64,000 nt of DNA from Chitinophaga vietnamensis (GTDB lineage: Bacteria > Bacteroidota > Bacteroidia > Chitinophagales > Chitinophagaceae): assembly GCF_902167635.1 (NCBI RefSeq), contig NZ_CABHMS010000003.1, positions 124,001-188,000 of the forward strand. The letters run 5' to 3'. Shown piece by piece: positions 1-16,085 of the stretch (position 1 is its first letter; the number at the start of each line of letters is the position of its first letter). A program made the translations under genes and the position numbers. The notes below the pieces were generated by a model. It ran no database searches, was not told where the DNA came from, and saw nothing but the letters and a program-made list of their open reading frames with translations.

Positions 1-2
1 AG

Positions 3-1553
3 AGGGGGCAAGTGTATGCCCGGTCGGTTAAGGTGACATGGGATCAGTATCAACAACCATTGGAAATACCTTTGATGCAACAAGGAGCTGATAGTGTTGC
101 TGTTAGCAGGCTGTTTGTGAGTATAAAGAAAAAGCAAGCACATGACCCCTGGTCGTTTGTTGTTGGCGAGTTAAGGTTGTATACGCACCGGGTACAGGAT
201 GAACCAGCGAAAGGATGCTTTTTCTACCAGTTAACAGGTGATGCCGCAAATGCGGCGCCTTCCTATACTATTGCTGAAATAGGCAACTGTTATCCCTTGT
301 CAGCGTTCACTATCTTCAGAGATACCTACGCGCAGGCATTTGCTTTTCAACCAGCATTTCCGTTATCAGGAGAGCATCTTGAAGATAGCGTTATTGCATT
401 GTTGCAGCTGATTATTCATAAATATCCATATTATAAAGAACATCACCTGGATAAAAAGCGAATTGTGTCTTTTCTCGATACGCTGGGGAAATCAGGCGTG
501 TCTTTTGACCGGAAGCTATCTGTAATTGACAGCCTGGCTAGCTCTTTTTCTGATGGACATTTTTATTTAGAGAAAAAATCTCCTGCGCTTAACAGTGGCC
601 CTGTTTACGTCAAGAGAATCAATGGGCGCCTGGAAGTCATTGCTGTATTTGATCAGGCGCTGCAGGGTAAAGTGAAGCCCGGTGATGAACTTTTGTCGGT
701 AGATGGCGTACCTGCCAACAGCTATATGAAAACCATCTCCATGCGTTATTATGGTGGCGAACAGGAGCGGGAGAATATGGCGGTATCGCGGCTGTTGTAT
801 AAAGCGCAGGGCGATTCTACTACTATAGAAGTGATGGATGAAGGGCAAAGAAAGATGGTTAGTTATTATTACAATAAAGCGATTGCTATCCCTGATAATT
901 TCAAGCCGGTGCATAGAAAGATATCCTGGAAAGATGATGCGTGCTATTACCGCCTGAATAGATGGGATGCGGGCGATTGGCTCTACTTTTATAATCACCG
1001 CGAGCGTATTAGTAAAGCCGGCGCTATCATTTTCGACCTCAGAGGTAATAGCGGAGGACTGGAGGTAGAAGCATTTAAAATGCTCTCCTGTTTTCTGAAA
1101 CAGCCTATATTGATATCCAGGAGCTCCTATGCTTACAGCGACAGTTGTGAAGTGGAAGGCCCTAATGTAGTAGTCCCGAATCAGTTTTTGAATCTTTCAG
1201 ATAAGAAGGTGCTCATACTCGTAGATAATAACACTGCCTGCGCATCGGAAATTTTTACCAGCACACTCAGGAACTATGCCCGGGCAACAGTGATCGGCAA
1301 TGAGAAAACTGCTGGCTCCTATGCAAGTGGCGATATATTCTATCTCCCTTTGAATATTACTATGCACGTGAATATCCTGAACAAATTTTCGCTCAATAAC
1401 AAGATGGGTGGAAGTATAGAAATGAGAGGGATCAACCCGGATGTCCAGGTTCCTCTGGAAAGTTACCGGGACCTTTATCCTTATGATGATAAAATACTCA
1501 GCGTAGCATACAGCTTGCTCTCAAAAGAGCGCCAGGCGACCGTTCATAGATGA
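3..1553 (+). CDS. S41 family (C-terminal-processing-type) peptidase, 5'-truncated by the window edge
   Basis: The reading frame is open to the left edge; the first possible start is a GTG at 12, but the protein seems to begin mid-domain, so the N terminus is probably missing. About residues 195-250 form a PDZ-like segment (KPGDELLSVDGVPA). The S41 core follows: FDLRGNSGG near residue 345, the nucleophile Ser in NNTACASEIF near 415, and the general-base Lys in GNEKTAGSYASG near 435. These are the Ser/Lys dyad signatures of tail-specific proteases, which usually act in the periplasm. It lies 89 bp upstream of the RiPP precursor on the same strand. S41 proteases often accompany radical-SAM peptide clusters in Bacteroidota, so trimming of the peptide or its leader is plausible but inferred. 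Confidence 0.85.
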   Translation, partial: RGQVYARSVKVTWDQYQQPLEIPLMQQGADSVAVSRLFVSIKKKQAHDPWSFVVGELRLYTHRVQDEPAKGCFFYQLTGDAANAAPSYTIAEIGNCYPLSAFTIFRDTYAQAFAFQPAFPLSGEHLEDSVIALLQLIIHKYPYYKEHHLDKKRIVSFLDTLGKSGVSFDRKLSVIDSLASSFSDGHFYLEKKSPALNSGPVYVKRINGRLEVIAVFDQALQGKVKPGDELLSVDGVPANSYMKTISMRYYGGEQERENMAVSRLLYKAQGDSTTIEVMDEGQRKMVSYYYNKAIAIPDNFKPVHRKISWKDDACYYRLNRWDAGDWLYFYNHRERISKAGAIIFDLRGNSGGLEVEAFKMLSCFLKQPILISRSSYAYSDSCEVEGPNVVVPNQFLNLSDKKVLILVDNNTACASEIFTSTLRNYARATVIGNEKTAGSYASGDIFYLPLNITMHVNILNKFSLNNKMGGSIEMRGINPDVQVPLESYRDLYPYDDKILSVAYSLLSKERQATVHR

Positions 1554-1642
1554 ATTGCATGCGGTACGCAGGTTTATCCATTGGTATATATCATGTCGAT
1601 ATATAGTAAATACCTATTCTTTCACCATTCAATGTTTTCTTT

Positions 1643-1870
1643 ATGGACAACCAGAAAAAAGAAAATCAAAAGAAAAAAATGAGGGACCTGATCAAACCCC
1701 AAAGAATTGATCTGACCCTCACAGGTTCAAATGAGTACAGGAATCTGGTGATTCCTTATTGCAACAGCGGCTACAGCAACACCAGCAGTGGCAGGACCTG
1801 CGAAACAGGCTACTCTTCAAATGCCTGGTGCGTAACCAGCCCCACAGGTGGAGATGAAGTGCTGTTCTGA
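1643..1870 (+). CDS. Putative RiPP precursor peptide (75 aa)
   Basis: A small protein immediately upstream of a radical SAM/SPASM maturase. Residues 1-30 are Lys/Gln-rich and charged and look like a leader. The segment from about residue 28 to 75 is rich in Gly, Ser, Thr and Asn, with Cys40, Cys53 and Cys63, Tyr32, 39, 44 and 57, and Trp62. Three triplets share the pattern Tyr-x-Asn (YRN at 32-34, YCN at 39-41, YSN at 44-46); YSS (57-59) and WCV (62-64) are looser copies. No GG cleavage motif is seen. The aromatic residues could be substrates for the cluster's radical SAM enzyme and halogenase, and the Ser/Thr-rich stretch for its glycosyltransferases; all of this is inference from context. 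I do not recognise the sequence family. The stop codon is followed by an attenuator-like hairpin. Confidence 0.75.
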   Translation: MDNQKKENQKKKMRDLIKPQRIDLTLTGSNEYRNLVIPYCNSGYSNTSSGRTCETGYSSNAWCVTSPTGGDEVLF

Positions 1871-1881
1871 TGTGTTTTACC

Positions 1882-1923
1882 AAGGGTCATTGCGGAGCTT
1901 TCTGTTCCGTAATGGCCTTTTTT
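1882..1923 (+). terminator. Intrinsic terminator/attenuator between precursor and maturase genes
   Basis: Arms 1882-1896 and 1906-1920 pair along 15 positions (a few G-U pairs) around a 9-nt loop (1897-1905) and run into a six-T tract (1918-1923). It starts 12 nt after the precursor stop and ends 21 nt before the preferred maturase start at 1945. Such a hairpin would make much precursor mRNA and allow partial read-through to the enzymes. Confidence 0.75.
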
Positions 1924-1944
1924 CTCACGCCACAAAGTTCTGTT

Positions 1945-3393
1945 ATGATACCCGATCTTAAATTAAGCTATTATAATTTCTTTATTCCGCACCCGACAAG
2001 GAACATTTACCTTGTCTATAATTCCTTGTCCAACTCGATGATTGAGCTGGACTGGGAAGTAGGGCTCCGCTGTTCCAAACTGAACAGCATGGAAATCCAT
2101 TACCTGGATGAAGATGTAATTGAGATGTTGATGAGCCATCAGATGATTATTCCAAGAGAGGTCAATGAATTTGAATTGGTGCGTGGCCGGGCCGCCGGCA
2201 ACCGGAAGGTATTTGACTCGTCAGATACCTTGTTCATGGTGATCTCTCCTACCAATACCTGCAACATGAATTGCCCCTATTGTTATCAGGGAGATAAAAC
2301 CGGTGATGATCATGATGTGAAATACCTCGGTAAGGAGAATATGGAGGCATTGAAACTATTCATGAAAGAAAGGATCATACATCCGCATGCTGCTCCGGTA
2401 AAACATATCCGCATTGAATGGTTTGGCGGAGAACCGATGATGAGAAAGAATACCATCGAGGAGTTTTCCACTTATGTGATAGCATTGGCCGAAGAACACG
2501 GCATAGATTATTCTGCCTCCATTATTACCAATGGTACCTTGCTGGATGAGAAAGCATTTGCATTGTTGGAAAAGTGTAAGGTAAGCAACCTGCAGATTAC
2601 TGTAGACGGCAGCAAACGTATGCACGACTCTGTACGTTATTACCTGAATGGAAAAGGAACTTATGACAAAATACTTGCCAACCTCGTAGCCATGCCGGCT
2701 GGTAAATTTAAAATAACGATACGCATTAATGGAGATAAAGCTGTTTTCGATAACCTGACCGAAATGTTTGAAGACCTGGAAGCAAGTGGGGTGTGGCCTC
2801 AGCGTGCCAATGAAGTAGATTTTAGCTGGGCCCCGAAATTTTACAACTTTCTTGGATATAACCAGGATAAGGATGTTTACTACACCAGTTACGAATACCA
2901 ACGATCAAAAGAAGAATTTACCCGGTTCAAGATGGAGCGGTATAATAAGTGGGCAGAGAAGAATAAACTGCCACCCAGAAAGCTGAATTTCGCTTATCCA
3001 AGTTTTGCAGAATTTTATTGTGGAACAGTAGAAAGCCCTAACTCTATTTCGGTGGATGATGGCGGCTATATCCACAAATGTTACAATACTATCAACGACA
3101 AAACGAAGCGTATACAGCATATCGGTGAATTCGATCCGTTGAAGGAAGAGCTGGATATGTACCGGAAGTTTGATAAAACAAAGCAACCAGATTGCCAGAC
3201 CTGCAAGGTGCTTCCTATCTGCGAGGAGAATTGCAATATGCGGTTCATCTCGAATGCAGAAAGCAAAATATGCTCTGCCTGGAAATATTTTATGGAAGAA
3301 AGGATGGCAGCTATTTACGAGTATAATTTCGCAGGAGAGCAGGAACATGCATCAAAAATAGTTAGCCGGAACGGAACCGTTGAAACATGTTAA
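1945..3393 (+). CDS. Radical SAM/SPASM peptide maturase
   Basis: The 482-residue protein from ATG 1945 begins with an ~80-residue region of the kind found at the front of peptide-modifying SPASM enzymes, which may act as a precursor-recognition element. The radical SAM motif CNMNCPYC (CxxxCxxC, residues 106-113) binds the SAM-coordinating 4Fe-4S cluster. The C terminus carries a SPASM pattern: FYCG, then HKC about 19 residues on, then CQTCKVLPICEENC and a final Cys, for auxiliary Fe-S clusters. An in-frame ATG at 1870 overlaps the precursor stop, but starting there would place the terminator hairpin inside the gene, so 1945 is preferred. The stop overlaps the next gene by 7 nt. It probably makes a C-C, thioether or ether cross-link in the precursor; the chemistry cannot be read from the sequence. 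Confidence 0.9.
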   Translation: MIPDLKLSYYNFFIPHPTRNIYLVYNSLSNSMIELDWEVGLRCSKLNSMEIHYLDEDVIEMLMSHQMIIPREVNEFELVRGRAAGNRKVFDSSDTLFMVISPTNTCNMNCPYCYQGDKTGDDHDVKYLGKENMEALKLFMKERIIHPHAAPVKHIRIEWFGGEPMMRKNTIEEFSTYVIALAEEHGIDYSASIITNGTLLDEKAFALLEKCKVSNLQITVDGSKRMHDSVRYYLNGKGTYDKILANLVAMPAGKFKITIRINGDKAVFDNLTEMFEDLEASGVWPQRANEVDFSWAPKFYNFLGYNQDKDVYYTSYEYQRSKEEFTRFKMERYNKWAEKNKLPPRKLNFAYPSFAEFYCGTVESPNSISVDDGGYIHKCYNTINDKTKRIQHIGEFDPLKEELDMYRKFDKTKQPDCQTCKVLPICEENCNMRFISNAESKICSAWKYFMEERMAAIYEYNFAGEQEHASKIVSRNGTVETC

Positions 3394-5174
3394 AAGTAGG
3401 AATAATTGACAGTGGCGTTAATCAGTCGGGTATTAAGATACCTTCCGACAGGATAACGGGTGTGCATTTTTATAAAGATGAAAATGGACAGATAATATCT
3501 GATGAGGATATTAACGATTTGCTGGGGCACGGAACTGCCTGTGTGGCTACGATATGGCAGTACAGCAATAATATACAGTTTTATATGCTGAGGATTTTTG
3601 ATGAACAATGGAAGGCTGATCCGGATATCCTGGTAGCGGCGATCGCTGAGTGTATTAGTCAACAAGTAGATATCATCAATGTAAGCCTTGGTATTGAGTC
3701 AGATCAGATCAGTGCGCCGCTTTATGAAATTTGCCGCCAGGCTTATAACCGGCATATACCAATTATTGCCGCTGGTCGCCTGGATGATAAAATATGTTTC
3801 CCCGCATGCCACCCTGAGGTGATCGGCGTGGGGTGCCTGGATTTATCCGCAGCGGTGGAACTGGTATACATGGAACACGCCGCCATCGACTTCTATACAA
3901 AAGGAGAAATTACGTTTAATGGGCAGCTCTATTTCGGAACAAGCTTCTCTTGTGCAAAAGTAACCGGCGAAATGGTAATATTGATGGATCGCTTGCCTAC
4001 ACGCAATGTCAATCATCTTAAAGCTGCTCTTGCCAGCAAAGCCAGCCAGGCAGCGTTTCGCTATCCGCTTAAACTGCCTTGTGCTGTTCATGCCCCCGGC
4101 TATGAAAGGAAAGAACAAGTTATTGAAAAATATTTTGCACCGCTTTTGCGATACGATTTTGCTCAACGGGTGCTCGTTATGCCGCTCTATGACGAGGGCA
4201 TGAAAGCTGTTTTTGCGGCTGGCGTAAAAGCATGCAGGGGATTGATCTATCAATATTGGCAACATAGTTATTTTGCTAATGAGGTGCCGTCTTTAATTCC
4301 GCCTCCCGAGTTGTGCGCAACATTTGATACTATCGCGCTGGGAAGATTAAGTTCGCTTTTAACCGCTTATAACAGCGGGCCGGTATACCAGCAGATAAAG
4401 CTCCTGTTGAAGAAAGGAAAACATTTTATTGTATATGATGAGGCAGACTATGGCCTGCTGCTTGAACTGAAAGCCGAAACCAAGACGCCGGTGCAAATAG
4501 CGTTATCGCTATTGCGCAAAGAGGACCTCGATGATTTCCGGTGTTTCGATGATATACAGCCGCTGGAAATACCAGTGGTAGCAACAGTTGGTACCAGTTC
4601 AGGGGAGATTGTTTCGCTCCAGGCCAGTCTTTACCGGCAGCTCAATAATGAGGGCTATGATGTGGCATATATTGCTCCGGTAGCACAAGGAGAACTATTG
4701 GGCGCCGACTTTTCCTATTCTGTGAATGATGCGCACTTATCCGACAATGATATCGAAACCGGGAAATCACTCCAATGGATATTAAAAGCAGTGCAACATT
4801 GCCGGCGTCCTGATCTTATTCTTACGGGCTTGCCAGGAGCAGTGGTGCCAACTGATGCACCTGGAGGATCCTCTCTGGCCGGACTGTCTTTCCTGAAAGG
4901 CATTCAGCCTGATGCACTGCTGATATATGTTACGGAAGAAGTACCGGTAGAACGAATATGGAGTAACTATCATACTGCCATCGGGCTAAGCGGTATCAGG
5001 AGATGTTGCTTTTTACTGGCTGGCACTGAAGGAAATCATCGCCTCGCCGCGTTGTACGATCTGTTGACCCCTTTCGGGATCGTGCTCTTTCAGGATACCT
5101 CAGGCATGTACCCTGGCCTTGAAAAGGTCATCAGGTCTTTTTTTTCATTACAACCAATACTTGAAACAACATAG
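3387..5174 (+). CDS. Subtilisin-like S8 peptidase fused to a TIGR04066/DUF1611-like module
   Basis: Residues 1-205 are a compact S8 domain without a signal peptide, with Asp8 (GIIDSGV), His48 (GHGTA) and Ser186 (FGTSFSCA) as the triad. The oxyanion-hole Asn, normally in AAGN, is replaced by Arg131 (IIAAGRLD). Residues ~240-595 are a second module: a Rossmann-like half (VLVMPLYDEG... IALGRL... KGKHFIVYD) and a P-loop-like half (VATVGTSSGEI... GLPGAVVPT... GIQPDALLIY). From memory this resembles DUF1611 proteins and, more closely, the TIGR04066 proteins of clostridial radical-SAM peptide clusters. The P-loop lacks the usual Lys. A cytoplasmic role in cleaving or handling the precursor leader is likely but inferred. 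It overlaps the maturase gene by 7 nt. Confidence 0.85.
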   Translation: MLKVGIIDSGVNQSGIKIPSDRITGVHFYKDENGQIISDEDINDLLGHGTACVATIWQYSNNIQFYMLRIFDEQWKADPDILVAAIAECISQQVDIINVSLGIESDQISAPLYEICRQAYNRHIPIIAAGRLDDKICFPACHPEVIGVGCLDLSAAVELVYMEHAAIDFYTKGEITFNGQLYFGTSFSCAKVTGEMVILMDRLPTRNVNHLKAALASKASQAAFRYPLKLPCAVHAPGYERKEQVIEKYFAPLLRYDFAQRVLVMPLYDEGMKAVFAAGVKACRGLIYQYWQHSYFANEVPSLIPPPELCATFDTIALGRLSSLLTAYNSGPVYQQIKLLLKKGKHFIVYDEADYGLLLELKAETKTPVQIALSLLRKEDLDDFRCFDDIQPLEIPVVATVGTSSGEIVSLQASLYRQLNNEGYDVAYIAPVAQGELLGADFSYSVNDAHLSDNDIETGKSLQWILKAVQHCRRPDLILTGLPGAVVPTDAPGGSSLAGLSFLKGIQPDALLIYVTEEVPVERIWSNYHTAIGLSGIRRCCFLLAGTEGNHRLAALYDLLTPFGIVLFQDTSGMYPGLEKVIRSFFSLQPILETT

Positions 5175-5184
5175 CTGTTTGATC

Positions 5185-6933
5185 ATGAAATGGAAAGACT
5201 ACCAGGTATTTTTTTCTTATCTGTATCCCTTCTGGGTCAGGGAGTTGTTGTTGTTTGTATTGATGATAGCTGGTACACTTGCAGGACTGGCCTCTCCCTA
5301 TGCGCTAAAGCTCATCATTGATCAGTATATACCAGGAAAGGATTATGCGGGATTGCTTGCTGTATTGGGAGTGTTGATCATCATTTACCTGTTGAGGATG
5401 TTGATAGGGTTCTGGTCGGATTATATAAGCACCTGGATCGCTAACAAAGTGGTGCATAATATCAAGCAAAACCTTTTCAGTAACCTTATGCGGCAGCCCT
5501 ATGCTTATTTTGAAGAGAATAACCCAGGCGATATTATTCAGAAAGTAAACCAGGAAGTACATAAGATACAATATTTCCTCACCAATAGTATTTTAAGGCT
5601 TTCCTATAATATATTTTCCATTGCAGGCCTTTCGTCCATGCTGTTACTGCTCGATTACAAACTGTTCCTGGTAGCGTTGAGCGTGTTCCCTTTTTCTATC
5701 ATACTCAACCGGCTATGGAACAGGAAAATAAAGGTATTAGTAGAAAAGATATCTGTGGCAGAAGGAGGGATATTTAATTTTTATATAGACCGGATACGGA
5801 ACATGAAAGTGATCAGGACATATAACGCAGCAGGAAAAGAATCTTCAGCGCTTGAGGAGAAACTGGATCAATTATTTTCGTTGTATCGAAGATCTGGCAT
5901 TTACTCATCGCTAAGCAGGAACGCATCTTCCTTCTTCCTGATGGCAGGTCCGCTGATAATGCTGGCGTATGGGGGATATCGTGTTATGTTGGGCGCACTT
6001 ACCACCGGCACTCTGGTGGCATTCATACAATATATGAACCGCTTGTACGCGCCATCGAATGATATCGTCTTTTTCTATGTAGACTATGTAAATGCCAAGG
6101 TATCAATGAAACGGATACTTCCCTTGCTCGGTAAATTCGGCAAGTTGCCCTCTGGCAGGGATAGTGTTTCGGAGCAAGCAATTGCTTCTCTGCGTTTGAA
6201 TAAAATTTGTTTCCGCTATAACCAGACTGAAATTATCAGCGCGCTCTCATTTGAGTTTGTCAGCGGCAAGAGTTATGCGTTGGTAGGCCTTAACGGATCT
6301 GGTAAAAGCACCCTGCTAAAAGTTATAGGCCGGCTGTATGATCCGCAGGAAGGAGATATCATTGTCAATGATACGCAATCGCTCGCAGAGATACCCGCTG
6401 CGGAGTGGTACGAGCATGTCAATATCATTCACCAGGAACCTTTGTTATTTATGGAAACGATCCGGTTTAACCTCGATTACGGTGGACGAGGCGCTACTGA
6501 TCATGAAATGTGGGAAGCCCTGGAAGCAGTAGGCCTACGCTCCTTTGTTGAACAATTACCAGCGGGGCTGGATACTGTTTTGGGCGATGGTAAGACCGGT
6601 ATTATTCTCTCGGGAGGGCAGCAACAGCAAGTGGTCATCGCACGTGCGCTATTGAGAGGAGGACAGGTGCTCATCCTCGACGAGGCTACATCTGCCATCG
6701 ATTCTTACAAGGAACAACTCATTCTGCAGAATATCATCGACCGATATCGCTCAAAGATCGTTATCGCTATCAGTCACCGCCTCAGCACTGTCAGGGACCT
6801 TGACGAGATCATTGTATTGCATCAGGGCCGCATAGTGGAGAATGGAACGCACCATCACCTGGTAGCGAAAGAAGGACAATATTGTGCGATATTCGAAAGT
6901 CAGATGAAAGCAGCAGAACAGGTATCTATATAA
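5185..6933 (+). CDS. ABC transporter, fused permease and ATPase (peptide exporter type)
   Basis: A 582-residue half-transporter with a six-helix type-IV exporter membrane domain (residues ~1-330) followed by a nucleotide-binding domain. The Walker A is GLNGSGKST, the signature is LSGGQQQQVVIARALL, the Walker B is VLILDEATSA, and the switch His is in AISHRLST. It has no N-terminal C39 peptidase domain, so leader removal must be done by another enzyme, probably the fused S8 protein or the S41 protease. ATG 5185 is chosen because it starts just after the S8 gene ends (5174) and a typical exporter N terminus follows; an upstream in-frame ATG at 5119 lies inside the S8 gene. It probably exports the mature peptide across the inner membrane as a homodimer. 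Confidence 0.9.
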   Translation: MKWKDYQVFFSYLYPFWVRELLLFVLMIAGTLAGLASPYALKLIIDQYIPGKDYAGLLAVLGVLIIIYLLRMLIGFWSDYISTWIANKVVHNIKQNLFSNLMRQPYAYFEENNPGDIIQKVNQEVHKIQYFLTNSILRLSYNIFSIAGLSSMLLLLDYKLFLVALSVFPFSIILNRLWNRKIKVLVEKISVAEGGIFNFYIDRIRNMKVIRTYNAAGKESSALEEKLDQLFSLYRRSGIYSSLSRNASSFFLMAGPLIMLAYGGYRVMLGALTTGTLVAFIQYMNRLYAPSNDIVFFYVDYVNAKVSMKRILPLLGKFGKLPSGRDSVSEQAIASLRLNKICFRYNQTEIISALSFEFVSGKSYALVGLNGSGKSTLLKVIGRLYDPQEGDIIVNDTQSLAEIPAAEWYEHVNIIHQEPLLFMETIRFNLDYGGRGATDHEMWEALEAVGLRSFVEQLPAGLDTVLGDGKTGIILSGGQQQQVVIARALLRGGQVLILDEATSAIDSYKEQLILQNIIDRYRSKIVIAISHRLSTVRDLDEIIVLHQGRIVENGTHHHLVAKEGQYCAIFESQMKAAEQVSI

Positions 6934-6957: not shown

Positions 6958-8553
6958 ATGAAAGAATCTTATCTGTCACTCGTAGAGAGTTTTAAATCCT
7001 CCAAGGAAAATATTCAACAGAAGCATCCATTTTATTTCGACCTGGAATGGGAAGGCGAAGATGTATACAAGGATGTATGTATTGTGGGTGGCGGGCTGGC
7101 AGGATATCTGACCGCCATTGCTTTCAGAAAGTTTTTTGATATACCCGTTACCGTTATAGAGCCTTCCGGTATCCCGCCGATTGGCGTAGGGGAGGCCACC
7201 ACGCCTTTATTGGCGGATTACCTGTTTGGCGCCCTGGAGTTGGATAAACAGGAATTCCTCAAGATGGTGGAGCCTACCTGGAAATTAGGCATCAAATTCT
7301 TCTGGGGGTTACCCGGTGACTACTTTTTTAATTATCCCTTTGATACGAAGGATATACTCTCCGCCTATATTCACGATGGAGATATTAACCGCTGTTCACT
7401 GAATTCAATGCTCATGTCCGAGGACCTGAGCTTCGTAGCAAAGATTGAAGATCACAAAGAAGTCAAGTACCATTCTCTTTCCAAGTCGCTAAAATATGCG
7501 TATCACCTCGATAACCGGAAATTTATTGATTATTTGAAATTTCAAGCGAGGAAGGCGGGCGTCGTGTTCCTTGACGAAGAAATTGTGGATGCCGTAACCG
7601 ATGAAAAAGGCGACATCTCATATCTCATTAATAAAGAGGCAGACAAGTTTCAATATGACCTTTATGTGGATTGCTCCGGTTTCAGATCTCTGTTGCTGGA
7701 AAAGAAGATGAAGGTCCCCTATATTTCTTTCCAGGATAGCCTTTTCAACAATAGTGCAGTTACCACCGTGGTGCCTAATGGCGGGCACATCAAGTGTTAT
7801 ACCTATGCCGAGTCTATGGATAATGGCTGGTGCTGGAATATCCCGCTGAGGCATGAAGATCACCGGGGATATGTTTTCTCCTCGGATCATTGTTCAGACG
7901 AGCAGGCCTATGAAGAATTGCTGAGGAAGAACCCGGATATGGACAAAGATGTTAAGTTCATCCGCTTTCGCAGTGGCAGGCATGCCGCATTCATAACGGG
8001 CAATGTAGTAGCGATCGGGAACGCCTATTCTTTTGTGGAGCCCCTTGAATCAACAGGCGTTCACATGATTATCGATCAGATCATCGTGTTAATGAATAAT
8101 TTCATCAACCTGAAACGTAATCCCACACTGAAGAAATTGCTAAACGACAACATGAATGAGCATTGGGAATACATCAGGTGGTTCCTTTCCATACATTTTA
8201 AGTTCAACAGGAAATTTGATACGCCCTATTGGAAAGCCTGCCGGTCCAACGCCAATACGAAAGGGTTCGACAAATTCATTTCCCTGTATAAAGAAATTGG
8301 CCTGCTCACCAGGCAGGATACCACTGTGCAGGATATGATCCGCCACGATGTGAGGGATACGATCTTTGACCTGTACGGGATCGATCATATTCTTTTCGGG
8401 CAAGGGGTGTTGCCGGATCGTATCTCCAGGATCAGCCTGGATAACAAAGAAGAGTGGAGCAGGATGACCAGCACCTGGGAGAAAATAACGAAATATACTA
8501 TACCACTGAAAGATGACCTGGATGTATTATTACGTAATCCGCAATTGCTTTGA
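6958..8553 (+). CDS. FAD-dependent tryptophan-halogenase-family enzyme
   Basis: A 531-residue protein with a dinucleotide-binding GGGLAG (residues 44-49) and halogenase box GVGEATTP (76-83). Lys109 in TWKLGIKF aligns with the catalytic Lys79 of PrnA, the WxWxIP motif is at 291-296 (WCWNIP), and Glu364 in EPLESTG aligns with PrnA Glu346. Every residue expected of an active flavin-dependent halogenase is therefore present. About 37 residues precede the FAD fold, longer than in free-tryptophan halogenases. The enzyme needs reduced FAD, and no flavin reductase is encoded nearby. It lies 24 bp after the exporter, in the same apparent operon. The likely substrate is the Trp or Tyr side chains of the precursor, as MibH does in NAI-107 biosynthesis; a monooxygenase-like or small-molecule role cannot be excluded. 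Confidence 0.85.
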   Translation: MKESYLSLVESFKSSKENIQQKHPFYFDLEWEGEDVYKDVCIVGGGLAGYLTAIAFRKFFDIPVTVIEPSGIPPIGVGEATTPLLADYLFGALELDKQEFLKMVEPTWKLGIKFFWGLPGDYFFNYPFDTKDILSAYIHDGDINRCSLNSMLMSEDLSFVAKIEDHKEVKYHSLSKSLKYAYHLDNRKFIDYLKFQARKAGVVFLDEEIVDAVTDEKGDISYLINKEADKFQYDLYVDCSGFRSLLLEKKMKVPYISFQDSLFNNSAVTTVVPNGGHIKCYTYAESMDNGWCWNIPLRHEDHRGYVFSSDHCSDEQAYEELLRKNPDMDKDVKFIRFRSGRHAAFITGNVVAIGNAYSFVEPLESTGVHMIIDQIIVLMNNFINLKRNPTLKKLLNDNMNEHWEYIRWFLSIHFKFNRKFDTPYWKACRSNANTKGFDKFISLYKEIGLLTRQDTTVQDMIRHDVRDTIFDLYGIDHILFGQGVLPDRISRISLDNKEEWSRMTSTWEKITKYTIPLKDDLDVLLRNPQLL

Positions 8554-9026: not shown

Positions 9027-9566
9027 ATGCCGGCAGACATACTTCAAAGCGCTATAGACGGGGATAGGGAAGCTATGAACCAGCTATTGGAAAAGCACCG
9101 TGATCTCGCTTTTTCAATAGCGTTGAAATATCTTAGAAATGCTGACGACGCGGAAGATATTGTTCAGGAGGCCTTCGTGAAGATATTTTTAAACATCAGG
9201 AAGTTTCGCAATGAATCAGCTTTTTCTACCTGGCTTTATAAAATAGTTTACTACGAGGCTTGCAGGCATATTGGCAAACAACGCAGGATATTGTCTATAA
9301 AAGAAGAAGTGAAAGACGAAACAGCGGTGCATGAAGATGTGGTATTGTTCAAGGATGAGCGAACCAATATCATCAGGCATTCCATGCAATGCCTGTCGGC
9401 CAATGAATACTTAGTCATGAACCTGTTCTATCTCCTGGAGAAGAGCATCACCGAAATACAACAGATCACTGGACAGTCGGGCGCGAACATAAAAGTATTG
9501 TTGCACCGGGGAAGAAAGAAGATAGCGGCATATCTGAATAACAGCGCAGCCACCGGCGAAATATAA
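9027..9566 (+). CDS. RNA polymerase ECF sigma-70 factor
   Basis: 179 residues. Region 2 spans ~20-90 with ALKYLRNADDAEDIVQEAFVKIF (core binding and -10 recognition), a linker follows, and region 4 is a helix-turn-helix at ~125-170 (LFYLLEKSITEIQQITGQSGANIKVLLHRGRKKI). The length is normal for an ECF sigma factor. It is sandwiched between two small membrane proteins and lies upstream of a large outer-membrane protein gene, as in many Bacteroidota transport or surface loci. Its targets probably include the genes downstream and perhaps the RiPP operon. Confidence 0.93.
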   Translation: MPADILQSAIDGDREAMNQLLEKHRDLAFSIALKYLRNADDAEDIVQEAFVKIFLNIRKFRNESAFSTWLYKIVYYEACRHIGKQRRILSIKEEVKDETAVHEDVVLFKDERTNIIRHSMQCLSANEYLVMNLFYLLEKSITEIQQITGQSGANIKVLLHRGRKKIAAYLNNSAATGEI

Positions 9567-9603: not shown

Positions 9604-9933
9604 ATGAACGAAGAAGATATAAGAAAATTCCTGGGTGATGGTATCGCGCCTGTTAGTGCCCGTAATTTTAACGAAAGGGTACTAAGCCGGATACCTATGA
9701 AAAAAGAGAAGAAACATTTTATTTCTTTCGATGTAGTATTGGTTTTCTTATTGTTTTTTGCCTCAGTTGCAGCAGTTTGTTTATTGTTTTTCATGCCGGC
9801 TATGCAGGAGATCACCAGAACAGCGATCTTGCTCATTGCCACTGTAGTGGCACTTTTGGGTGTATGTCTTGTGTTAGTTAACCTGGTCGTTTCAGCGAGA
9901 TATAGACTGATGGCTGATCAGCACCCTGCCTGA
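9604..9933 (+). CDS. Small membrane protein, probable anti-sigma-like partner
   Basis: 109 residues. The cytoplasmic N terminus of about 40 residues (MNEEDIRKFLGDGIAPVSARNFNERVLSRI) is followed by two hydrophobic helices (~41-66 and ~72-96). A short cytosolic segment containing an FxxRVLxRI-like helix before membrane helices, directly after an ECF sigma gene, is the usual layout of short anti-sigma factors in this phylum. It lacks a zinc-binding HxxxCxxC motif. Assignment as anti-sigma is from context, not from a clear family match. Confidence 0.7.
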   Translation: MNEEDIRKFLGDGIAPVSARNFNERVLSRIPMKKEKKHFISFDVVLVFLLFFASVAAVCLLFFMPAMQEITRTAILLIATVVALLGVCLVLVNLVVSARYRLMADQHPA

Positions 9934-10036
9934 TAACCCGTTTATCCGGATGTTTTATGCTCTAATAATGAATCGTCCGATGCGGACAGGGCTTGCTGTG
10001 CGCATTGGTGAAGCTATAACCTAATAACGGCTGATC

Positions 10037-12778
10037 ATGAGAACGGCAATTATTTTCCTGGCATTCTTTTGCCTCACAGTTTCGCAAACCTTCGCTCAAA
10101 CTACCGTTCGTGGTGTGGTGAGAGATAGTTTACAACGTGAGCATATGGCCGATATTGTTGTAGTACTAATGAATAGTAAAGATTCAATGCTGGTTAATGC
10201 CACGAGAACCAATACTAATGGTCATTTCGAGCTACAGGCAGATACCGGCTCCTACATTGTGCTGGTATCATCTGCTGACTATGCTGATTATACGGATGTT
10301 ATTCATATAACCGGGCAAGCAGCACTGGATCTGGGTAATATCAACATGATTACACGATCCAGGCTATTGCAGGAGGTAGTTGTAAAAGGAGCCGTGGCGG
10401 CTATTAGCATCAAAGGAGATACCACTGAATTTGTTGCAGACAGCTTTCATCTTCAGCATGGCGCTTCGGTAGAAGAACTGTTGAAACGCTTGCCTGGACT
10501 TAATGTCGATAAAGATGGCAAAATAACAGCACAGGGAGAAGCAGTGAAAAAAGTGCTGGTGGACGGAGAAGAGTTCTTTGGAGATGATCCTACACTGGTA
10601 ACCAGGAATCTTCACGCTGATATCATTGATAAGGTACAGATCTATGATAAGAAATCTGACCTCGCAACTGTCACAGGTATTAATGACGGGATTAAAGACA
10701 AAACGATCAACCTGAAATTAAAGGAAGAAGGCAAGAAAGGCAGTTTTGGAAAAGTAGTTGCTGGCGGCGGATTGCAGGGGTACTATGAAAATCAGGCTAT
10801 GTTCAACTTGTTCAAGAATAAACGAAAAGTGTCTGTTTTTGGGACCTGGGCCAATACCGGCCGGGTAGGATTGGGTGCGCAGGATGATGAGAAATATAGC
10901 ACGGGCAAGAACGAGTCTGTTACAAAAGATAATGAGCTGGATACCTGGAATGGCGCTTATGATGGACAGGGTATACCTGTTGCCCGCACAGGGGGCGCCC
11001 ATTTTAACGATAAATGGAATGAAGACCGTCAATCAATAAACCTGAACTACCGCGTGGCAGGGCTCACGGTTGAAGGGGAGAACAATACCATTACACAAAA
11101 TAACCTGCCCGGTGAAATCATCATTTCGCATACCAGCCAAACTTTTGCCAACAACAGCACCAGGAACCGGCTTACAGGGGAATACGAGATAAGGCCGGAT
11201 TCCAGCTTGTCTATTAAGCTGAATGTTGCTGGTGGCTTGCAGCATACCACCACAGAAAATTTCTATATCACCAATACATTACGTGCAGACAGCGTCCTGC
11301 TCAATAATGGCGAGAGGCACCTGAACAGCGCCGGAGACCTGCATAATATGAATACCAATATTTTAATGGTGAAACAACTGAGGAAAAAGGGAAGGAGTAT
11401 CTCCCTTCATCTGCATAATAATTATATCGACGAATCCAACAGGGGCTTCATCAGCAGTACAAACCATTTTCATATTGCCTCCGGCGATAGTGCGGCAACG
11501 GTGAACCAATACAAAGCTGATCTGTCAAGGTCCCTGTATCTCGATGGTAAAGTGGTGTTCACAGCGCCTTTATCGCGTTCCATGGTAATGTTGTTGAACT
11601 ATAGCTTCTTTGCCAATAGCAGTCAATCTGATCTGGCTACTTATAACAAAGCCGGAAACGGCAAGTATGAGGAGATAGACAGTGCGCTGAGCAGCAGGTA
11701 TCAGTTCGATCAGCGGATACACCAGGGGGGCGTCGCATTCAGCTACGACCACAATAAAATCCATCTCAATTATGGTTTGGATATGGGCTATGCCAATCTT
11801 CTTCAGCAGCATAAAAGTACAGGCGCGACACTCAGCCGCAATTTTGTGAATTGGTACCCGACGGCCGAAATTGCCTATGTGATCAGATTGCAGAAATCTG
11901 TTGGCATATATTACAAGGGAAATAACCAGATGCCAACCGTTAACCAGCTGTTACCGGTACCGAACGTGAACGATCCGCTGAATGTTTATATCGGCAATCC
12001 TGCATTGCGGCCTTCCTTTAGCCATGTACTGGGTGTGAAATACAATTCATATAAAACGGCAGCGCAACAATACCTGTTCAGTAATTTTAATTACGCCTTT
12101 TCCAATAACCAGATTGCCATTAATACCCTCACTGACACCGCCGGTAAAAATGTATACAGCTATGCCAATGTGGGCGGAAGCAGCAATTATTGGGGATACC
12201 TGGGTATTGGAAAGAAGATGCAGCAATTGGATATGAATGCAGGTCTGAATGTAAACATCAATGGCGGGCGAGGAGTGAATTACAGTAACCATATTAAAAA
12301 TGTCCTCAGCTACAGTCGTTATGGAGTGGAGGCATATGCCAATAAATACCGGGAAAAATGGTTTGATGCCAGCCTGAAATTATCAGCTTCGTACAATACC
12401 AATCGATCTTCCTTACAGGAGTCCGCATCTGTCAATTATTGGCTGTATATGATTGGTCCTGACCTTACCCTGTTTTTACCAGCAGGATTCAAGATACATA
12501 CTGATTTTAGTTATCAGCACCGGCAACGTACTACTTTGTTTACCGATAACCTGGATGTTTTGCTATGGAATGCCTGGCTGGAAAAGCGCCTGATCAGGGA
12601 CGGCAGCCTGCTTGTTCGCTTGTCGGCCAATGATCTGCTAAATCAGAACCGTGGCTTCAGCAGATCGGTAGCCAATAATTTTATTATACAAAACAGCTAC
12701 ACAACTATACAACGGTTTTTCCTGTTATCTGTGAGCTGGAATTTCGTTCATAACAATGATTTAAACAGTAATAAATAA
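10037..12778 (+). CDS. Outer-membrane beta-barrel protein with carboxypeptidase-regulatory domain and plug
   Basis: 913 residues with a signal peptide (residues ~1-20, cut after TFA). A carboxypeptidase-regulatory-like beta sandwich (~22-110) is followed by a TonB-plug-like domain (~115-215, including EELLKRLPGLNVDKDG and VLVDGEEFFGDDP), then a long barrel rich in alternating aromatic strands. The overall shape matches the outer_membrane_beta-barrel_3 family, which is related to TonB-dependent receptors but has no obvious TonB box. Lying behind the exporter and sigma unit, it may carry the finished peptide across the outer membrane, take up a bound metal form, or act as an immunity or receptor protein. 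Confidence 0.88.
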   Translation: MRTAIIFLAFFCLTVSQTFAQTTVRGVVRDSLQREHMADIVVVLMNSKDSMLVNATRTNTNGHFELQADTGSYIVLVSSADYADYTDVIHITGQAALDLGNINMITRSRLLQEVVVKGAVAAISIKGDTTEFVADSFHLQHGASVEELLKRLPGLNVDKDGKITAQGEAVKKVLVDGEEFFGDDPTLVTRNLHADIIDKVQIYDKKSDLATVTGINDGIKDKTINLKLKEEGKKGSFGKVVAGGGLQGYYENQAMFNLFKNKRKVSVFGTWANTGRVGLGAQDDEKYSTGKNESVTKDNELDTWNGAYDGQGIPVARTGGAHFNDKWNEDRQSINLNYRVAGLTVEGENNTITQNNLPGEIIISHTSQTFANNSTRNRLTGEYEIRPDSSLSIKLNVAGGLQHTTTENFYITNTLRADSVLLNNGERHLNSAGDLHNMNTNILMVKQLRKKGRSISLHLHNNYIDESNRGFISSTNHFHIASGDSAATVNQYKADLSRSLYLDGKVVFTAPLSRSMVMLLNYSFFANSSQSDLATYNKAGNGKYEEIDSALSSRYQFDQRIHQGGVAFSYDHNKIHLNYGLDMGYANLLQQHKSTGATLSRNFVNWYPTAEIAYVIRLQKSVGIYYKGNNQMPTVNQLLPVPNVNDPLNVYIGNPALRPSFSHVLGVKYNSYKTAAQQYLFSNFNYAFSNNQIAINTLTDTAGKNVYSYANVGGSSNYWGYLGIGKKMQQLDMNAGLNVNINGGRGVNYSNHIKNVLSYSRYGVEAYANKYREKWFDASLKLSASYNTNRSSLQESASVNYWLYMIGPDLTLFLPAGFKIHTDFSYQHRQRTTLFTDNLDVLLWNAWLEKRLIRDGSLLVRLSANDLLNQNRGFSRSVANNFIIQNSYTTIQRFFLLSVSWNFVHNNDLNSNK

Positions 12779-12781
12779 ATC

Positions 12782-13567
12782 ATGATAAAGCATTGTTTTT
12801 TGACTATCTGTTTTGCTGTAACAGGCTTGACAGGCATGCCATTTATTTATGGACAACAAGCACCGGCTATCAGAGAAGGGAAGATTTTGTACGAGAGAAG
12901 GGTGAATGGCTATAACCTGATGGAGGCCATGACAAAGGCCGGAGGCCTCACGCAAGCAAAGCTGGATGCCTATAAGCACGATAATCCAGCTTTTAATACC
13001 AGCAGGTTTGTATTGCAATTTAAAGGAGGTCAAATGGTTTATCAACCTGATGTGAAAGGCATCAGCGCCCCGGCGTCTATTGACGAGTGGTTTAGTATGG
13101 TAGCCTACGATAATGTGGTTTGTTCCGATCTGGATCTGCGGCAGACGGTTGTGCAGAAACATGTTTTTGGTGAGCTGTTTACCGTTGCCGACAGTGCCAG
13201 ACAAATAAAATGGAAGATTACCAGCGAAACCAGGAAGATAGCCGGTTTTCAATGCCGGCGGGCCAATGCGGTGATGATGGATTCTGTTTATGTGGTTGCC
13301 TTTTATACCAATGAGATTGTTCCCCGTGGCGGACCGGAATCTTTTGGAGGACTGCCCGGAATGATCCTGGGCATAGCTTTACCACATGAGCATATCACGT
13401 GGTTTGCCCAGGAGGTTTATACTACACCTATAGCCGGGCAATTGAAATGTGTGATCCCGGAAAATAAGAATCGTATCGATAATAAAAAATTTGCAGAGCG
13501 GCTCTCCGGTATCACCCAGGGATGGGGAAAAATGGCCTCCATGGTGATCACGAAAGCAGGGCTTTAA
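12782..13567 (+). CDS. GLPGLI family protein
   Basis: 261 residues with a signal peptide (cut near FIYGQQ) and the family-defining motif as GLPGMILGIALPHE near residue 200. GLPGLI proteins (TIGR01200) are secreted or periplasmic proteins of unknown function found almost only in Bacteroidota, usually paired with a beta-barrel outer-membrane protein, as here (3-bp gap). The fold is all-beta and has been likened to outer-membrane-associated lipocalin-like proteins. A joint function with the upstream barrel is likely. Confidence 0.92.
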   Translation: MIKHCFLTICFAVTGLTGMPFIYGQQAPAIREGKILYERRVNGYNLMEAMTKAGGLTQAKLDAYKHDNPAFNTSRFVLQFKGGQMVYQPDVKGISAPASIDEWFSMVAYDNVVCSDLDLRQTVVQKHVFGELFTVADSARQIKWKITSETRKIAGFQCRRANAVMMDSVYVVAFYTNEIVPRGGPESFGGLPGMILGIALPHEHITWFAQEVYTTPIAGQLKCVIPENKNRIDNKKFAERLSGITQGWGKMASMVITKAGL

Positions 13568-13587
13568 AAAAAATAATAGTAGCGTCT

Positions 13588-14877
13588 ATGAACCCGATCC
13601 CCACATTTGTTATTAACCTGAAAAGGCGGCCCGACCGCAGAGCGCATGCGTTGGAACAATTCAAAAATAAAAATGAATTTGATGTTTCCGTGATAGATGC
13701 GCAAGGACATGAAATAGGTGCGATAGGCCTATGGGAAACCATTAAGCTGATTATACGACAAAGTATTGATGCTGATGCTGAATACATTATTATTTGTGAA
13801 GATGACCACACTTTCACCGTCGACTATTCGAAGGAATTGCTCGCAGAAAGCATTGCGGAAGCAGCCCGTTACCACGCGGACATGCTCAGTGGCGGCGTTA
13901 GCTGGTTTAGTAATGCTTTCGCGGTTACAGAAAATGTGCTATGGATAGAAGGGTTTACAGGCTTTCAGTTCACCGTCTTGTTCCGCCCGTTCTTTGAGCG
14001 GATCATCTCTGCCTCTTTCGATGAGCATGATGCTGCCGATTTTAAAGTATCTTCTCTTTCAGCAAATAAATTGCTCATCTTCCCTTTTATTTCTGTACAG
14101 AAAGAATTTGGATACTCCGATGTCACCTTTGCCAACAGTACAAAAGGGAAAGTAGAAATGCAATTCACCAACAGTATCAAAAAAGGAGCGCTGGTCAGAT
14201 CGATTTATGGTTATATGAAAAAACAACAGGAATGGCAGCTGCCGGCGCTGGCTTCTCCCGCTGGTGAAATTACCTTTCCTGTTTATATTCCCCTTCATCG
14301 GAACGATGTGGACGGATGGCTGGATATTAAAAAAACGTTTGAAGGAAAAGATGAGTTTGAGGTGATTGTAATGGAGACAGAAGAGGAAAATACAAATGCC
14401 GGTATCACCTGGAAGTCCATCAAACAAGCGGTCGAAATGGCTGTAGCAAACGATGATGATATGATTATTCTCTGCGATAAGCGACACAGGTTTTCTTCTC
14501 AATACTCGAGTGAATCATTTTTCAGGTATGTCATGGAAGCTTATTACAGAAGGATTGAAGTGCTGTCTGGTGGCCTTAGTGATTTTGATATCGCCATTCC
14601 TGTAACTGAAAACCTGGGCTGGGTCAACATATTCTCATCCGCCGGACTGCTGGTTTTAAATAGCAGCCTTTTTCAGCAGATATTAGCATATGATCCGAAA
14701 GATAAGCAAAAACCGGATGAGGTATTGTCAAGATTGACCAGTAGCAAAATGTTCATCTTCCCCTTCATTTCTTATTTGGAAGATAACGGCAATCAATATG
14801 TTCACACATTGCCCGCTGGAGAGCGTATCCGTGTGGCACAGTGCATGTTAAAAAAATATAGTCAGCATGAAAAGTAA
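13588..14877 (+). CDS. GT25-like glycosyltransferase with two tandem catalytic-type domains
   Basis: 429 residues from ATG 13588, the first start after the GLPGLI stop. The N terminus TFVINLKRRPDRR is the hallmark of family 25 (LPS beta-galactosyltransferase type) enzymes, and IIICEDDHTF provides the DxD-like metal/donor site. The second half (from ~residue 225, FPVYIPLHRNDVDGW) repeats the layout: an ICEDDHTF equivalent appears as ILCDKRHRF, and SGGVSWFSNAFAVTEN matches SGGLSDFDIAIPVTEN. The second copy has lost the acidic motif, so only the first half is likely to be catalytic. It overlaps the next glycosyltransferase by 11 nt. Substrate unknown; the Ser/Thr-rich precursor is one candidate and a surface glycan another. 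Confidence 0.75.
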   Translation: MNPIPTFVINLKRRPDRRAHALEQFKNKNEFDVSVIDAQGHEIGAIGLWETIKLIIRQSIDADAEYIIICEDDHTFTVDYSKELLAESIAEAARYHADMLSGGVSWFSNAFAVTENVLWIEGFTGFQFTVLFRPFFERIISASFDEHDAADFKVSSLSANKLLIFPFISVQKEFGYSDVTFANSTKGKVEMQFTNSIKKGALVRSIYGYMKKQQEWQLPALASPAGEITFPVYIPLHRNDVDGWLDIKKTFEGKDEFEVIVMETEEENTNAGITWKSIKQAVEMAVANDDDMIILCDKRHRFSSQYSSESFFRYVMEAYYRRIEVLSGGLSDFDIAIPVTENLGWVNIFSSAGLLVLNSSLFQQILAYDPKDKQKPDEVLSRLTSSKMFIFPFISYLEDNGNQYVHTLPAGERIRVAQCMLKKYSQHEK

Positions 14878-15556
14878 TATTTGTTGTGTGCTGCTGGAAT
14901 ACTGTGGTGGCAAACAAACGGATGCCCTTTATACAAGACTGGCCAAATGGAACCCTGGTTATAAGATCAATGTGCTCGACAATGCCAGCAACCAAAATAA
15001 AAGCAGGTTTATTACCCATCAGAATATGGTGAACTCAGGGATAGGCGGAGGGATCATCGATGCGCTGCGCATCGCAAGGAAAGAACAGGCTAAATACCTG
15101 TTACTACTGGTGAATGACATTGTTCCCATAACCAGGATAGAGATCAGGAATTTCGAATTGATACTTGCACAATATCCGGAGGTAGTGCAGTTGAGTGCAT
15201 CCATAACAAAACATTCGGATCAGGCCGCGCATTACCCCTGGATGATAGACCAGGCGCAATGGCAGAACAGGGTGGTGCCACATGCAGATATTCTGTGTTG
15301 CGCAATGGATATTGATTTTATTCAGGAGTTTGGCGGGTTTCCAGATTCCAGGAGTGGTTGGGGGTATGACCTGGAACTGGCTTATCAGGCGCGCATCCGG
15401 CAACGAAAGATCGTTGTCAGCGATTTCTTTAAGGTGAGACATGTCAATGATAAAACAGGAGCCACTACCTCCGCGGAAAAGCGCGCAGAGTTGGAAAGGG
15501 TGTATGATGCCCGGTACGGATCATATAAGGTCATATTTGAACCAATCAACTTTTAG
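14867..15556 (+). CDS. GT2-like glycosyltransferase
   Basis: 229 residues of GT-A type. INVLDNASNQNKSRF resembles the DNxSxD nucleotide-sugar site, NMVNSGIGGGIIDALRIA matches the N.G.GGGNN.G helix of rhamnosyl/galactofuranosyl-type GT2 enzymes, and the usual NDD is NDI (LLLLVNDIV). A C-terminal GGFPDSRSGWGYDLELAYQ matches the GG.D......EDxDLxxR acceptor/catalytic region with Asp-Leu-Glu kept. The altered NDD may reduce metal binding. It overlaps the GT25-like gene, so the two probably work in one pathway. Confidence 0.7.
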   Translation: MKSNICCVLLEYCGGKQTDALYTRLAKWNPGYKINVLDNASNQNKSRFITHQNMVNSGIGGGIIDALRIARKEQAKYLLLLVNDIVPITRIEIRNFELILAQYPEVVQLSASITKHSDQAAHYPWMIDQAQWQNRVVPHADILCCAMDIDFIQEFGGFPDSRSGWGYDLELAYQARIRQRKIVVSDFFKVRHVNDKTGATTSAEKRAELERVYDARYGSYKVIFEPINF

Positions 15557-15557
15557 T

Positions 15558-15779
15558 ATGGAAGTCAAGCGTATTTACGAACTAATTTCACGCGAGTTAT
15601 CCAATGAGATCACCGCTGAGGAAAGGATAAAACTGAACCAAATAGCAGCCTTGCAACCTGAAATTGCCGCAGTGCTGGCCTTATTCCGACAACATTGGGC
15701 ATCTCCACATCAGGAAGAAGCTGCAAAGCAGCGGCTGCTCCGTCATTTAAATCGTTTGAAAGAGAAAGGCCTATTGTAA
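15558..15779 (+). CDS. Small FecR-N-terminus-like protein
   Basis: 73 residues starting at ATG 15558, one base after the preceding stop. The sequence ELISRELSNEITAEERIKLN and a following helix resemble the N-terminal sigma-binding helices of FecR-type anti-sigma factors (typically LLxKYLxGExSxEE). Here they stand alone, without a membrane helix or the periplasmic domain. It could be a free-standing sigma-binding peptide or a decayed gene. Position suggests co-transcription with the glycosyltransferases. Confidence 0.55.
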   Translation: MEVKRIYELISRELSNEITAEERIKLNQIAALQPEIAAVLALFRQHWASPHQEEAAKQRLLRHLNRLKEKGLL

Positions 15780-15800
15780 TACCCACATTAAACAAAGATC

Positions 15801-16085
15801 ATGACGCTCTACGAATTTTATTTTGATAACAAGTTGGTATGCATCCTCAGGAAAGGTGACCTGAGTGTTATACCTGCAATTGGTGACAGGATACAACTGA
15901 AACTCCGTAGCGCATATGCCAGCAGGTATGGGAACGATAGTTGGTGGCTGGTTTTCGAAAGATCCCTTTTGCTGGAGCTGGATGAAAATAACCATCTGGC
16001 AAATGAGACGATCCGTTTTAACCTGGCCCGGGACTTCCATAATAAAGATTGGGGAGATTGGGCACTTGCACAACAACTGGGATAG
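15801..16085 (+). CDS. Hypothetical protein (94 aa)
   Basis: Unrecognised. The protein is soluble and looks beta-rich, opening MTLYEFYFDNKLVCILRKGD and ending with an acidic, Trp-rich helix (WGDWALAQQLG). There is no signal peptide, membrane helix or Cys pair. It is 21 bp downstream of the FecR-like gene on the same strand and is probably the last gene of region A, since the following 269 bp are non-coding. Confidence 0.55.
   Translation: MTLYEFYFDNKLVCILRKGDLSVIPAIGDRIQLKLRSAYASRYGNDSWWLVFERSLLLELDENNHLANETIRFNLARDFHNKDWGDWALAQQLG

Follow-up and report, generated by a model that had tools for sequence, protein, structure and literature searches.

A probable halogenase-bearing relative of the DD(I/V)LF peptide clusters in Chitinophaga vietnamensis

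The first 16 kb of a 64-kb stretch of the 6.3-Mb Chitinophaga vietnamensis genome (G000:C3:124001-188000, the window) carries side by side genes for a short precursor-like peptide, a radical S-adenosylmethionine (SAM)/SPASM maturase, two proteases, an ATP-binding cassette (ABC) exporter and a flavin halogenase, which raises the question of whether they serve one peptide and, if so, whether such a pathway is already known. A sequence-only reading of this DNA had proposed a ribosomally synthesized and post-translationally modified peptide (RiPP) cluster with radical SAM chemistry that fitted no described class. Our analysis supports the first part of this proposal, but the second was too strong, as the precursor tail, the maturase and the proteases place the window beside the DD(I/V)LF orphan RiPPs named in 2025 (PMC12703449). 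The cluster is probably a ribosomal-peptide pathway, with cross-linking by the maturase, MibH-like halogenation of a Trp, processing by S8 and S41 proteases and export, and would be a halogenase-bearing sister of that family. Its genes, with the matches obtained in Pfam and NCBIfam scans of 17 window proteins, are the following:

1 to 1553, plus strand: S41 peptidase of the C-terminal-processing type (PF03572, E 2.6e-20; TACASE motif)
1643 to 1870, plus strand: precursor of 75 residues, with RDLIKPQ in the leader, two C-x3-Y repeats, a Trp beside the third Cys and the acidic tail GDEVLF
1870 to 3393, plus strand: radical SAM/SPASM peptide maturase (PF04055, NF052473 and motifs)
3387 to 5174, plus strand: S8 subtilisin-like protease (PF00082) with a QhpE-like N-terminal and a TIGR04066-like C-terminal domain
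5185 to 6933, plus strand: ABC exporter, permease and ATPase (PF00664, PF00005)
6958 to 8553, plus strand: flavin-dependent enzyme of the tryptophan-halogenase family, MibH-like (PF04820, E 6.7e-111, and motifs)

The run continues on the same strand with genes for a DUF6249 protein, an extracytoplasmic function (ECF) sigma factor, a small membrane protein, an outer-membrane barrel, a GLPGLI protein and a GT25-like glycosyltransferase, so that the collinear, co-directional series described from the sequence alone is indeed present. To place it, its maturase was searched in 148 relatives, which gave matches at E <= 0.001 in 59 of them; besides the own genome, only Chitinophaga skermanii (G076), of the same genus, showed a strong near-full-length match above 34% identity, and its protein, at 70%, is the nearest relative of the maturase. 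Of the 30 loci returned by a GTDB contig scan, the four at 55-70% identity belong to C. skermanii, a Saprospirales metagenome-assembled genome (MAG), Pedobacter cryoconitis and a Sphingobacterium MAG. When samples were searched with a five-row maturase alignment (E <= 1e-80), the own genome was the one hit among 395 from the phylum. The family to which the Pedobacter genome belongs gave 3 hits in 399 genomes, one of them new (G694), and the order that includes the Saprospirales MAG gave 1 in 298. In the window's own order 2 of 396 genomes matched, namely the own genome and that same Saprospirales MAG with identical coordinates and score. With the family model NF052473, too, the own genome was the single match (E <= 1e-60) in a sample of 345 from the phylum. 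The genomes sampled contain six window-type clusters, all in Bacteroidota, and from these samples the system looks rare.

In all six clusters the S41, precursor, maturase, S8 and ABC genes are found in the same order, and because this order recurs in six genomes the run is not a product of chance: it is confirmed as real and conserved, a direct observation that covers both the gene set and its retention. The precursor, which might have been absent next to the maturase in related genomes, adjoins it in six of six clusters, with homologues of the 75-residue peptide at the equivalent place in the 5 other genomes. The two clusters without a halogenase, L033 (Pedobacter) and L034 (Sphingobacterium), encode a short S8 protein of 223-225 residues and carry inserted genes between S8 and ABC, including an outer-membrane gene. 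In the former, roughly 1 kb (L033:14610-15697) separates the outer-membrane gene from the ABC gene without any long open reading frame (ORF); Sphingobacterium has a PF11051 gene there, and the Pedobacter stretch is possibly a decayed gene. Nineteen weaker maturase loci (L087-L105) were kept outside these counts and treated as another system, since no S8, S41, arginase or halogenase match lies within 20 kb of them. These loci come from the same genus and from one genome of another family, and 17 of the 19 share a second layout, in which a radical SAM protein at 22-30% identity to that of the window is encoded together with an ABC transporter and an outer-membrane barrel.

The evidence that links the halogenase to the peptide comes from the precursors themselves. 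Residues C40, Y44, C53 and Y57 (window numbering) are invariant in all six, giving the two C-x3-Y repeats, and every one of the six ends in an acidic stretch with a hydrophobic tail (GDEVLF in the window, GDEILF in C. skermanii, EDDVLF in G694 and the Saprospirales MAG, ELEILI or ELDILI in Pedobacter and Sphingobacterium). Against this constant background, a Trp and a third Cys are present in the precursors of the four halogenase clusters, the Trp adjoining that Cys or standing one residue away, and neither is found in the two clusters without a halogenase. The leader divides in the same manner, with R(D/E)L(I/V)KPQ in the four halogenase clusters and LVNAQ in the other two. When the sister clusters described below are counted as well, the Trp occurs in 4 of 4 precursor sets with a halogenase versus 0 of 9 others (Fisher p 0.0014), a directly observed co-variation which supports the earlier suggestion that the halogenase belongs with the peptide. 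Genome-wide searches found the halogenase in the own genome (G000), C. skermanii (G536), the Saprospirales MAG (G537) and, at 67%, G694; the Sphingobacterium MAG (G539) yielded none, and in Pedobacter (G538) the sole match was weak and 63 residues long (E 3.6e-5).

The halogenase is complete by its motifs: GxGxxG, WxWxIP and FxxPxxSxG are intact, as the sequence-only reading had stated, and K109, W291, W293, E361 and E364 are kept in four homologues, with 72%, 66% and 53% identity between the window enzyme and three relatives. The roles of K109, the presumed catalytic Lys, and E364 we take to be those known from PrnA. Its best solved match is 5uao (350.9 bits, residues 38-506), which papers name MibH, followed by a Trp 5-halogenase (208.3 bits); the enzyme is closer to MibH than to halogenases of free Trp.

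The maturase also has its motifs in full, with CxxxCxxC and a complete seven-cysteine SPASM pattern ending at C468, in agreement with the original assignment, and both sets of cysteines are invariant across five aligned maturases; its start codon is uncertain (1870, 1912 or 1945). The nearest NCBIfam model is FlmE/OhkG (NF052473), with 315.7 bits under a cut-off of 500; the PapB model gives 137 bits against a cut-off of 340, a figure to be read as a family score only. In the maturase tree the six window-type sequences form one clade (100/100). Within it the two Chitinophaga maturases are joined by that of G694 (88/94, moderate support); as G694 belongs to the same family as the Pedobacter genome, this suggests horizontal transfer.

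The family to which these scores point comprises the FlmA and OhkA precursors with the peptide arginases FlmR and OhkR, and its products and core boundaries are stated to be unknown (PMC12703449). We compared the window with seven further Chitinophaga clusters (L075-L080 and L086), referred to here as sister clusters, whose maturases are about 29-34% identical to the window's. Like the window, they largely have ABC, S8 and S41 genes around the maturase: all seven have the ABC gene, six an S8 match (L075 has none) and six an S41 match (L077 has none at 1e-5 and a weak partial one at 5e-5). A peptide arginase (PF12640) is encoded in all seven sister stretches and in none of the six window-type stretches (19-45 kb searched in each). 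No halogenase was found in the seven sister stretches, and genome-wide searches came back empty for six of the sister genomes, the seventh (G054) giving a weak match of 55 residues (E 2e-4). The 11 sister precursor ORFs contain no Trp and at least one Arg in the C-terminal half, and 10 of them end in (I/V)LF after acidic residues. They were collected by this tail pattern, except for the L077 precursor (tail VDSLLF, thus SLLF in place of the common ending), which was found by reading ORF lists; the ORFs of L077 and L080a have mechanical N-terminal extensions. The L077 leader (KVRDLIKP) is nearly identical to that of the window (KMRDLIKP).

Several sister proteins come close to the described family or fall inside it: the L076 maturase scores 658 bits, over the FlmE/OhkG cut-off, the L075 arginase reaches 332 bits with FlmR/OhkR, just under the cut-off of 350, and of three sister precursors submitted to the FlmA model the L076 one matches and two from L075 do not. 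The window resembles the DD(I/V)LF family in its short precursor, its acidic, hydrophobic C-terminal tail and its FlmE/OhkG-related maturase. It differs in having no arginase at any of the six loci, a halogenase at four, a Trp and C-x3-Y repeats in the precursor, the tail DEVLF and a maturase at 316 bits. On these comparisons we place it as a halogenase-bearing sister of the DD(I/V)LF RiPPs rather than as a class without relatives. The main text of PMC12703449 contains none of the words halogenase, rSAM, FlmE or glycosyltransferase.

Two further features of the sister clusters were recorded. On the minus strand of L075 (11678-12521), four tandem precursor ORFs with C-x5-C cores and (E/D)(D/E)(I/V)LF tails lie beside one maturase and one peptide arginase. 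Near the L076 maturase are a weakly acyl-carrier-like gene (L076:5165-5431) and a cupin/JmjC hydroxylase-like gene (L076:4344-5162) with homologues in L078 and L079, which suggests that these are further tailoring modules.

The proteases and the exporter would supply the remaining steps. The S41 gene, which the sequence-only reading had left unnamed, starts 361 nucleotides before the window and encodes 637 residues in full (L061 11640-13553); it is present in 6 of 6 clusters, always with TACASE, and by the look of its N-terminus, signal-peptide-like as judged by eye, the protein appears to be exported. Peptidases of this type are known for their habit of C-terminal processing, which makes it a candidate for the protease of the follower tail. 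The S8 protein is the fusion that had been noted, a subtilase domain joined to a TIGR04066-like C-terminal part (E 7.7e-7), with D8, H48 and S186 of the catalytic site invariant in four aligned proteins; the QhpE model NF049966 is its best NCBIfam match, under the cut-off (E 2.7e-36, 125 bits against 165). No signal peptide was seen in it by eye, and we propose that it is a cytoplasmic leader protease. In the qhp system, QhpD, QhpG and QhpE work in the cytoplasm and QhpE cuts off the leader ahead of export by QhpF (PMC7876137). The exporter has ABC_membrane and ABC_tran domains and matches no peptidase family, as had been claimed; it is 52% identical to that of C. skermanii and 50% to that of G694. 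Because relatives align from residue 22-23, its start is likely 5185, 10 nucleotides past the S8 stop, and not the TTG at 5119.

We infer each catalytic role, the order of the steps, the cross-link chemistry and the halide as follows. The maturase would bind the 75-residue precursor through its leader and cross-link the two C-x3-Y repeats, most likely as Cys thioethers; the MibH-like halogenase would then add chlorine or bromine to the Trp that adjoins the third Cys or lies one residue away. The S8 protease would next take off the leader in the cytoplasm and the ABC exporter deliver the peptide into the periplasm; trimming of the acidic follower tail (DEVLF) would fall to the S41 protease, itself exported. 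In such a scheme the halogenase module of the window type may occupy the place of the peptide arginase in the sister clusters examined. A bolder extension, which we regard as rather doubtful, is a modular RiPP family: the precursor tail, the radical SAM maturase, both proteases (S8 and S41) and the exporter would form its conserved part, combined with exchangeable modules, arginase with Arg cores or halogenase with Trp cores. The window product would in that case bear a sugar as well as radical cross-links and a halogen on its Trp, which might also be joined to the Cys close by.

A number of observations weigh against the proposed pathway and bear on its alternatives. The maturases of the four halogenase clusters form a single clade (84/95, moderate and below the starred level of the program), and because they do so the link between halogenase and Trp plausibly goes back to a single gain or loss that four lineages have retained, and not to four independent events. 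The split between Arg and arginase is less clean than that of Trp, given that the window precursor has one Arg in its C-terminal half and no arginase, the other five window-type precursors having none in that half. Maturase and precursor both fall short of the Flm family models, the FlmA model NF052472 matching neither the window nor the C. skermanii precursor, and no flavin reductase was seen in the cluster by the general family scans. Furthermore, a MibH-like sequence is not proof of a peptide substrate: Amm3 clusters with MibH and acts on a small molecule (PMC12715798), which would make sequence alone indecisive. The window enzyme has none of the YHG and QxxQ stretches tabulated for group-B halogenases of free Trp, yet KrmI also lacks both and reacts with free tryptophan (PMC8269204), so that their absence is weak support for a peptide substrate. 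With KrmI, BrvH and Amm3 in mind, the halogenase might act on a free small molecule and lie in the operon by chance or for a separate product, an explanation favoured by the Amm3 and KrmI precedents and by a substrate that sequence alone does not fix. We consider it unlikely, as four lineages, with identities as low as 53%, have kept the enzyme within this gene run, its presence tracks the precursor Trp, and the proteins scanned showed no other biosynthetic enzyme that would make a small aromatic compound. Less likely still is a qhp-like maturation of a protein-bound quinone cofactor, in which the flavin enzyme would be an oxygenase hydroxylating the Trp beside the Cys to give a tryptophylquinone-like group. 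The qhp operon does have an equivalent set, with a radical SAM maturase, the subtilisin-like QhpE, the ABC protein QhpF and a halogenase-fold flavoprotein, QhpG, acting on Trp (PMC7876137); QhpE is the best NCBIfam match of the S8 domain, and the Trp and the nearby third Cys appear and vanish together. However, the flavin enzyme scores 372 bits with Trp_halogenase versus 34 with QhpG (cut-off 240) and retains WxWxIP and FxxPxxSxG, the precursor is a short peptide with a follower tail, and the 17 proteins include no haem or amine-dehydrogenase gene product that the scans could find. We set this system aside on the missing haem genes and the low QhpG score, and retain the halogenated peptide pathway.

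How far that pathway extends is a closer question, since beyond the halogenase, after a gap of 130 nucleotides, lies a downstream unit:

8684 to 9025, plus strand: small membrane protein DUF6249, first of the unit (PF19762); same place in the C. skermanii order
9027 to 9566, plus strand: ECF-type sigma factor (TIGR02937, PF04542); 52% in C. skermanii, same place
9604 to 9933, plus strand: small membrane protein following the sigma gene; only its position is anti-sigma-like
10037 to 12778, plus strand: outer-membrane beta-barrel with a carboxypeptidase-regulatory-like N-terminal domain (PF14905, E 1.1e-37); 46% in C. skermanii
12782 to 13567, plus strand: GLPGLI family protein (TIGR01200, 111.4 bits, cut-off 50); 43.5% in C. 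skermanii
13588 to 14877, plus strand: GT25-like glycosyltransferase (PF01755, 30.5 bits, cut-off 24, over 34 residues); start 13588 preferred to 13522
14867 to 15556, plus strand: second putative sugar-transfer protein

These glycosyltransferase, outer-membrane and sigma genes might serve a separate surface-polysaccharide or uptake function, leaving a RiPP cluster from S41 to the halogenase only (to 8553), and to this we give a little less than an even chance. In its favour are the gap itself, the sugar-gene families that vary among clusters, and a GT25 paralogue of the own genome (L061 5155-6453) in another sugar-gene run upstream of the window. The sugar genes are GT25-like in the window, G694, L033 and L034 (homologues of the window gene being found in L033, L034 and L083), GT2 in C. 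skermanii and PF11051 in L034; the Saprospirales MAG has in its locus no annotated glycosyltransferase or GT25 homologue and only a DUF6734 gene, of a family of unknown function. On the other hand, the order DUF6249, sigma, small membrane protein, outer-membrane barrel, GLPGLI is syntenic in C. skermanii, where the 9604-9933 protein, which matches no family above cut-off, has a counterpart of 32% identity over part of its length; in 5 of the 6 window-type loci a glycosyltransferase-annotated gene or a GT25 homologue is no more than about 12 kb away from the precursor, and a DUF6734 gene stands between ABC and halogenase in 3 of the 4 halogenase clusters (C. skermanii, the Saprospirales MAG and G694). 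Ahead of the S41 gene of G694 are an outer-membrane gene and a sigma homologue of 29% identity, and GT2 homologues lie beside the S41 gene in 3 of 7 sister clusters. Sugar-transfer genes are in this way a recurrent companion, but their families and positions vary, and glycosylation of the peptide itself is unproven. As for the two glycosyltransferases listed by the sequence-only reading, the PF01755 match sustains one of them, and the other (14867-15556) has no Pfam or NCBIfam match at E 0.1. The upstream run that holds the paralogue (35% identity to the GT25-like gene) spans L061:4405-8578, about 7.6-3.4 kb before the window, and consists of nucleotidyltransferase-like and sugar-transfer-like genes.

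Among characterized systems, MibH, the chlorinase of NAI-107 (PDB 5uao), is the closest solved relative of the halogenase and has the same motifs; NAI-107, however, is a lanthipeptide, whereas the window has a radical SAM maturase and no lanthionine synthetase was found among the proteins scanned. Lanthipeptide, lasso and proteusin classes were set aside, as the same proteins include no such genes. The qhp operon shares the radical SAM-SPASM enzyme, the subtilisin-like protease, the ABC exporter and the halogenase-fold flavoprotein, all acting there on one polypeptide (PMC7876137), and is unlike the window, which has no dehydrogenase genes found, a halogenase without QhpG sequence and an extra exported S41 protease. 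ChlH (chlorolassin), SrpI (proteusin) and MppI (lanthipeptide) are, like the proposed activity here, flavin halogenases of Trp inside RiPP precursors, but the available texts name no radical SAM/SPASM maturase with them. The open-licence literature searched yielded no cluster in which a radical SAM/SPASM maturase and a peptide halogenase are encoded together. Darobactin belongs to the radical SAM RiPPs. Brominated darobactin analogues are mentioned in a 2025 review of peptide halogenation (PMC12615548), in a passage that names no halogenase of the darobactin cluster as their maker, so that radical SAM peptides bearing a halogen are not in themselves entirely new; the term radical SAM does not occur in that review.

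By late 2025 the halogenases acting on Trp inside peptides were counted as MibH, SrpI, MppI and ChlH (PMC12715798). If confirmed, the present system would add four Bacteroidota homologues tied to a radical SAM maturase rather than to lanthipeptide, lasso or proteusin machinery. For the missing tail-removing protease of the DD(I/V)LF family, the exported S41 enzyme found next to all six window-type precursors would be a candidate, and a residue that changes with the tailoring enzyme would mark the core, offering a handle on that family.

With regard to the genomic setting, the GC content is 0.41-0.46 over 1-16 kb of the window and 0.48-0.54 beyond; a genomic-island claim on this basis was dropped, as part of the sequence upstream of the window is also low. 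Plasmid carriage was rejected for the maturase (11 plasmid records, the 8 listed ones at 24-30% identity) and for the halogenase (29 records, all below 60%, the best listed being 37.6% in a Streptomyces plasmid), and a viral origin was set aside with 2 weak loci. In the window, an Rfam scan gave 0 matches, a tRNA search found none, and a sigma-70 promoter scan gave 41 against 37.4 in shuffles (sd 6.3), without enrichment, and was not used. After the glycosyltransferase genes, two small ORFs of 112 and 94 residues (15441-16085) have no family match above cut-off, the first overlapping the preceding gene, with a later start possible. Directly after the cluster, where the GC content rises, a TolC, RND adaptor and AcrB-type efflux operon follows (16355-22252), and further on two cation-transporting P-type ATPases of related domain make-up are encoded on the minus strand (26500-28986 and 49313-51877).

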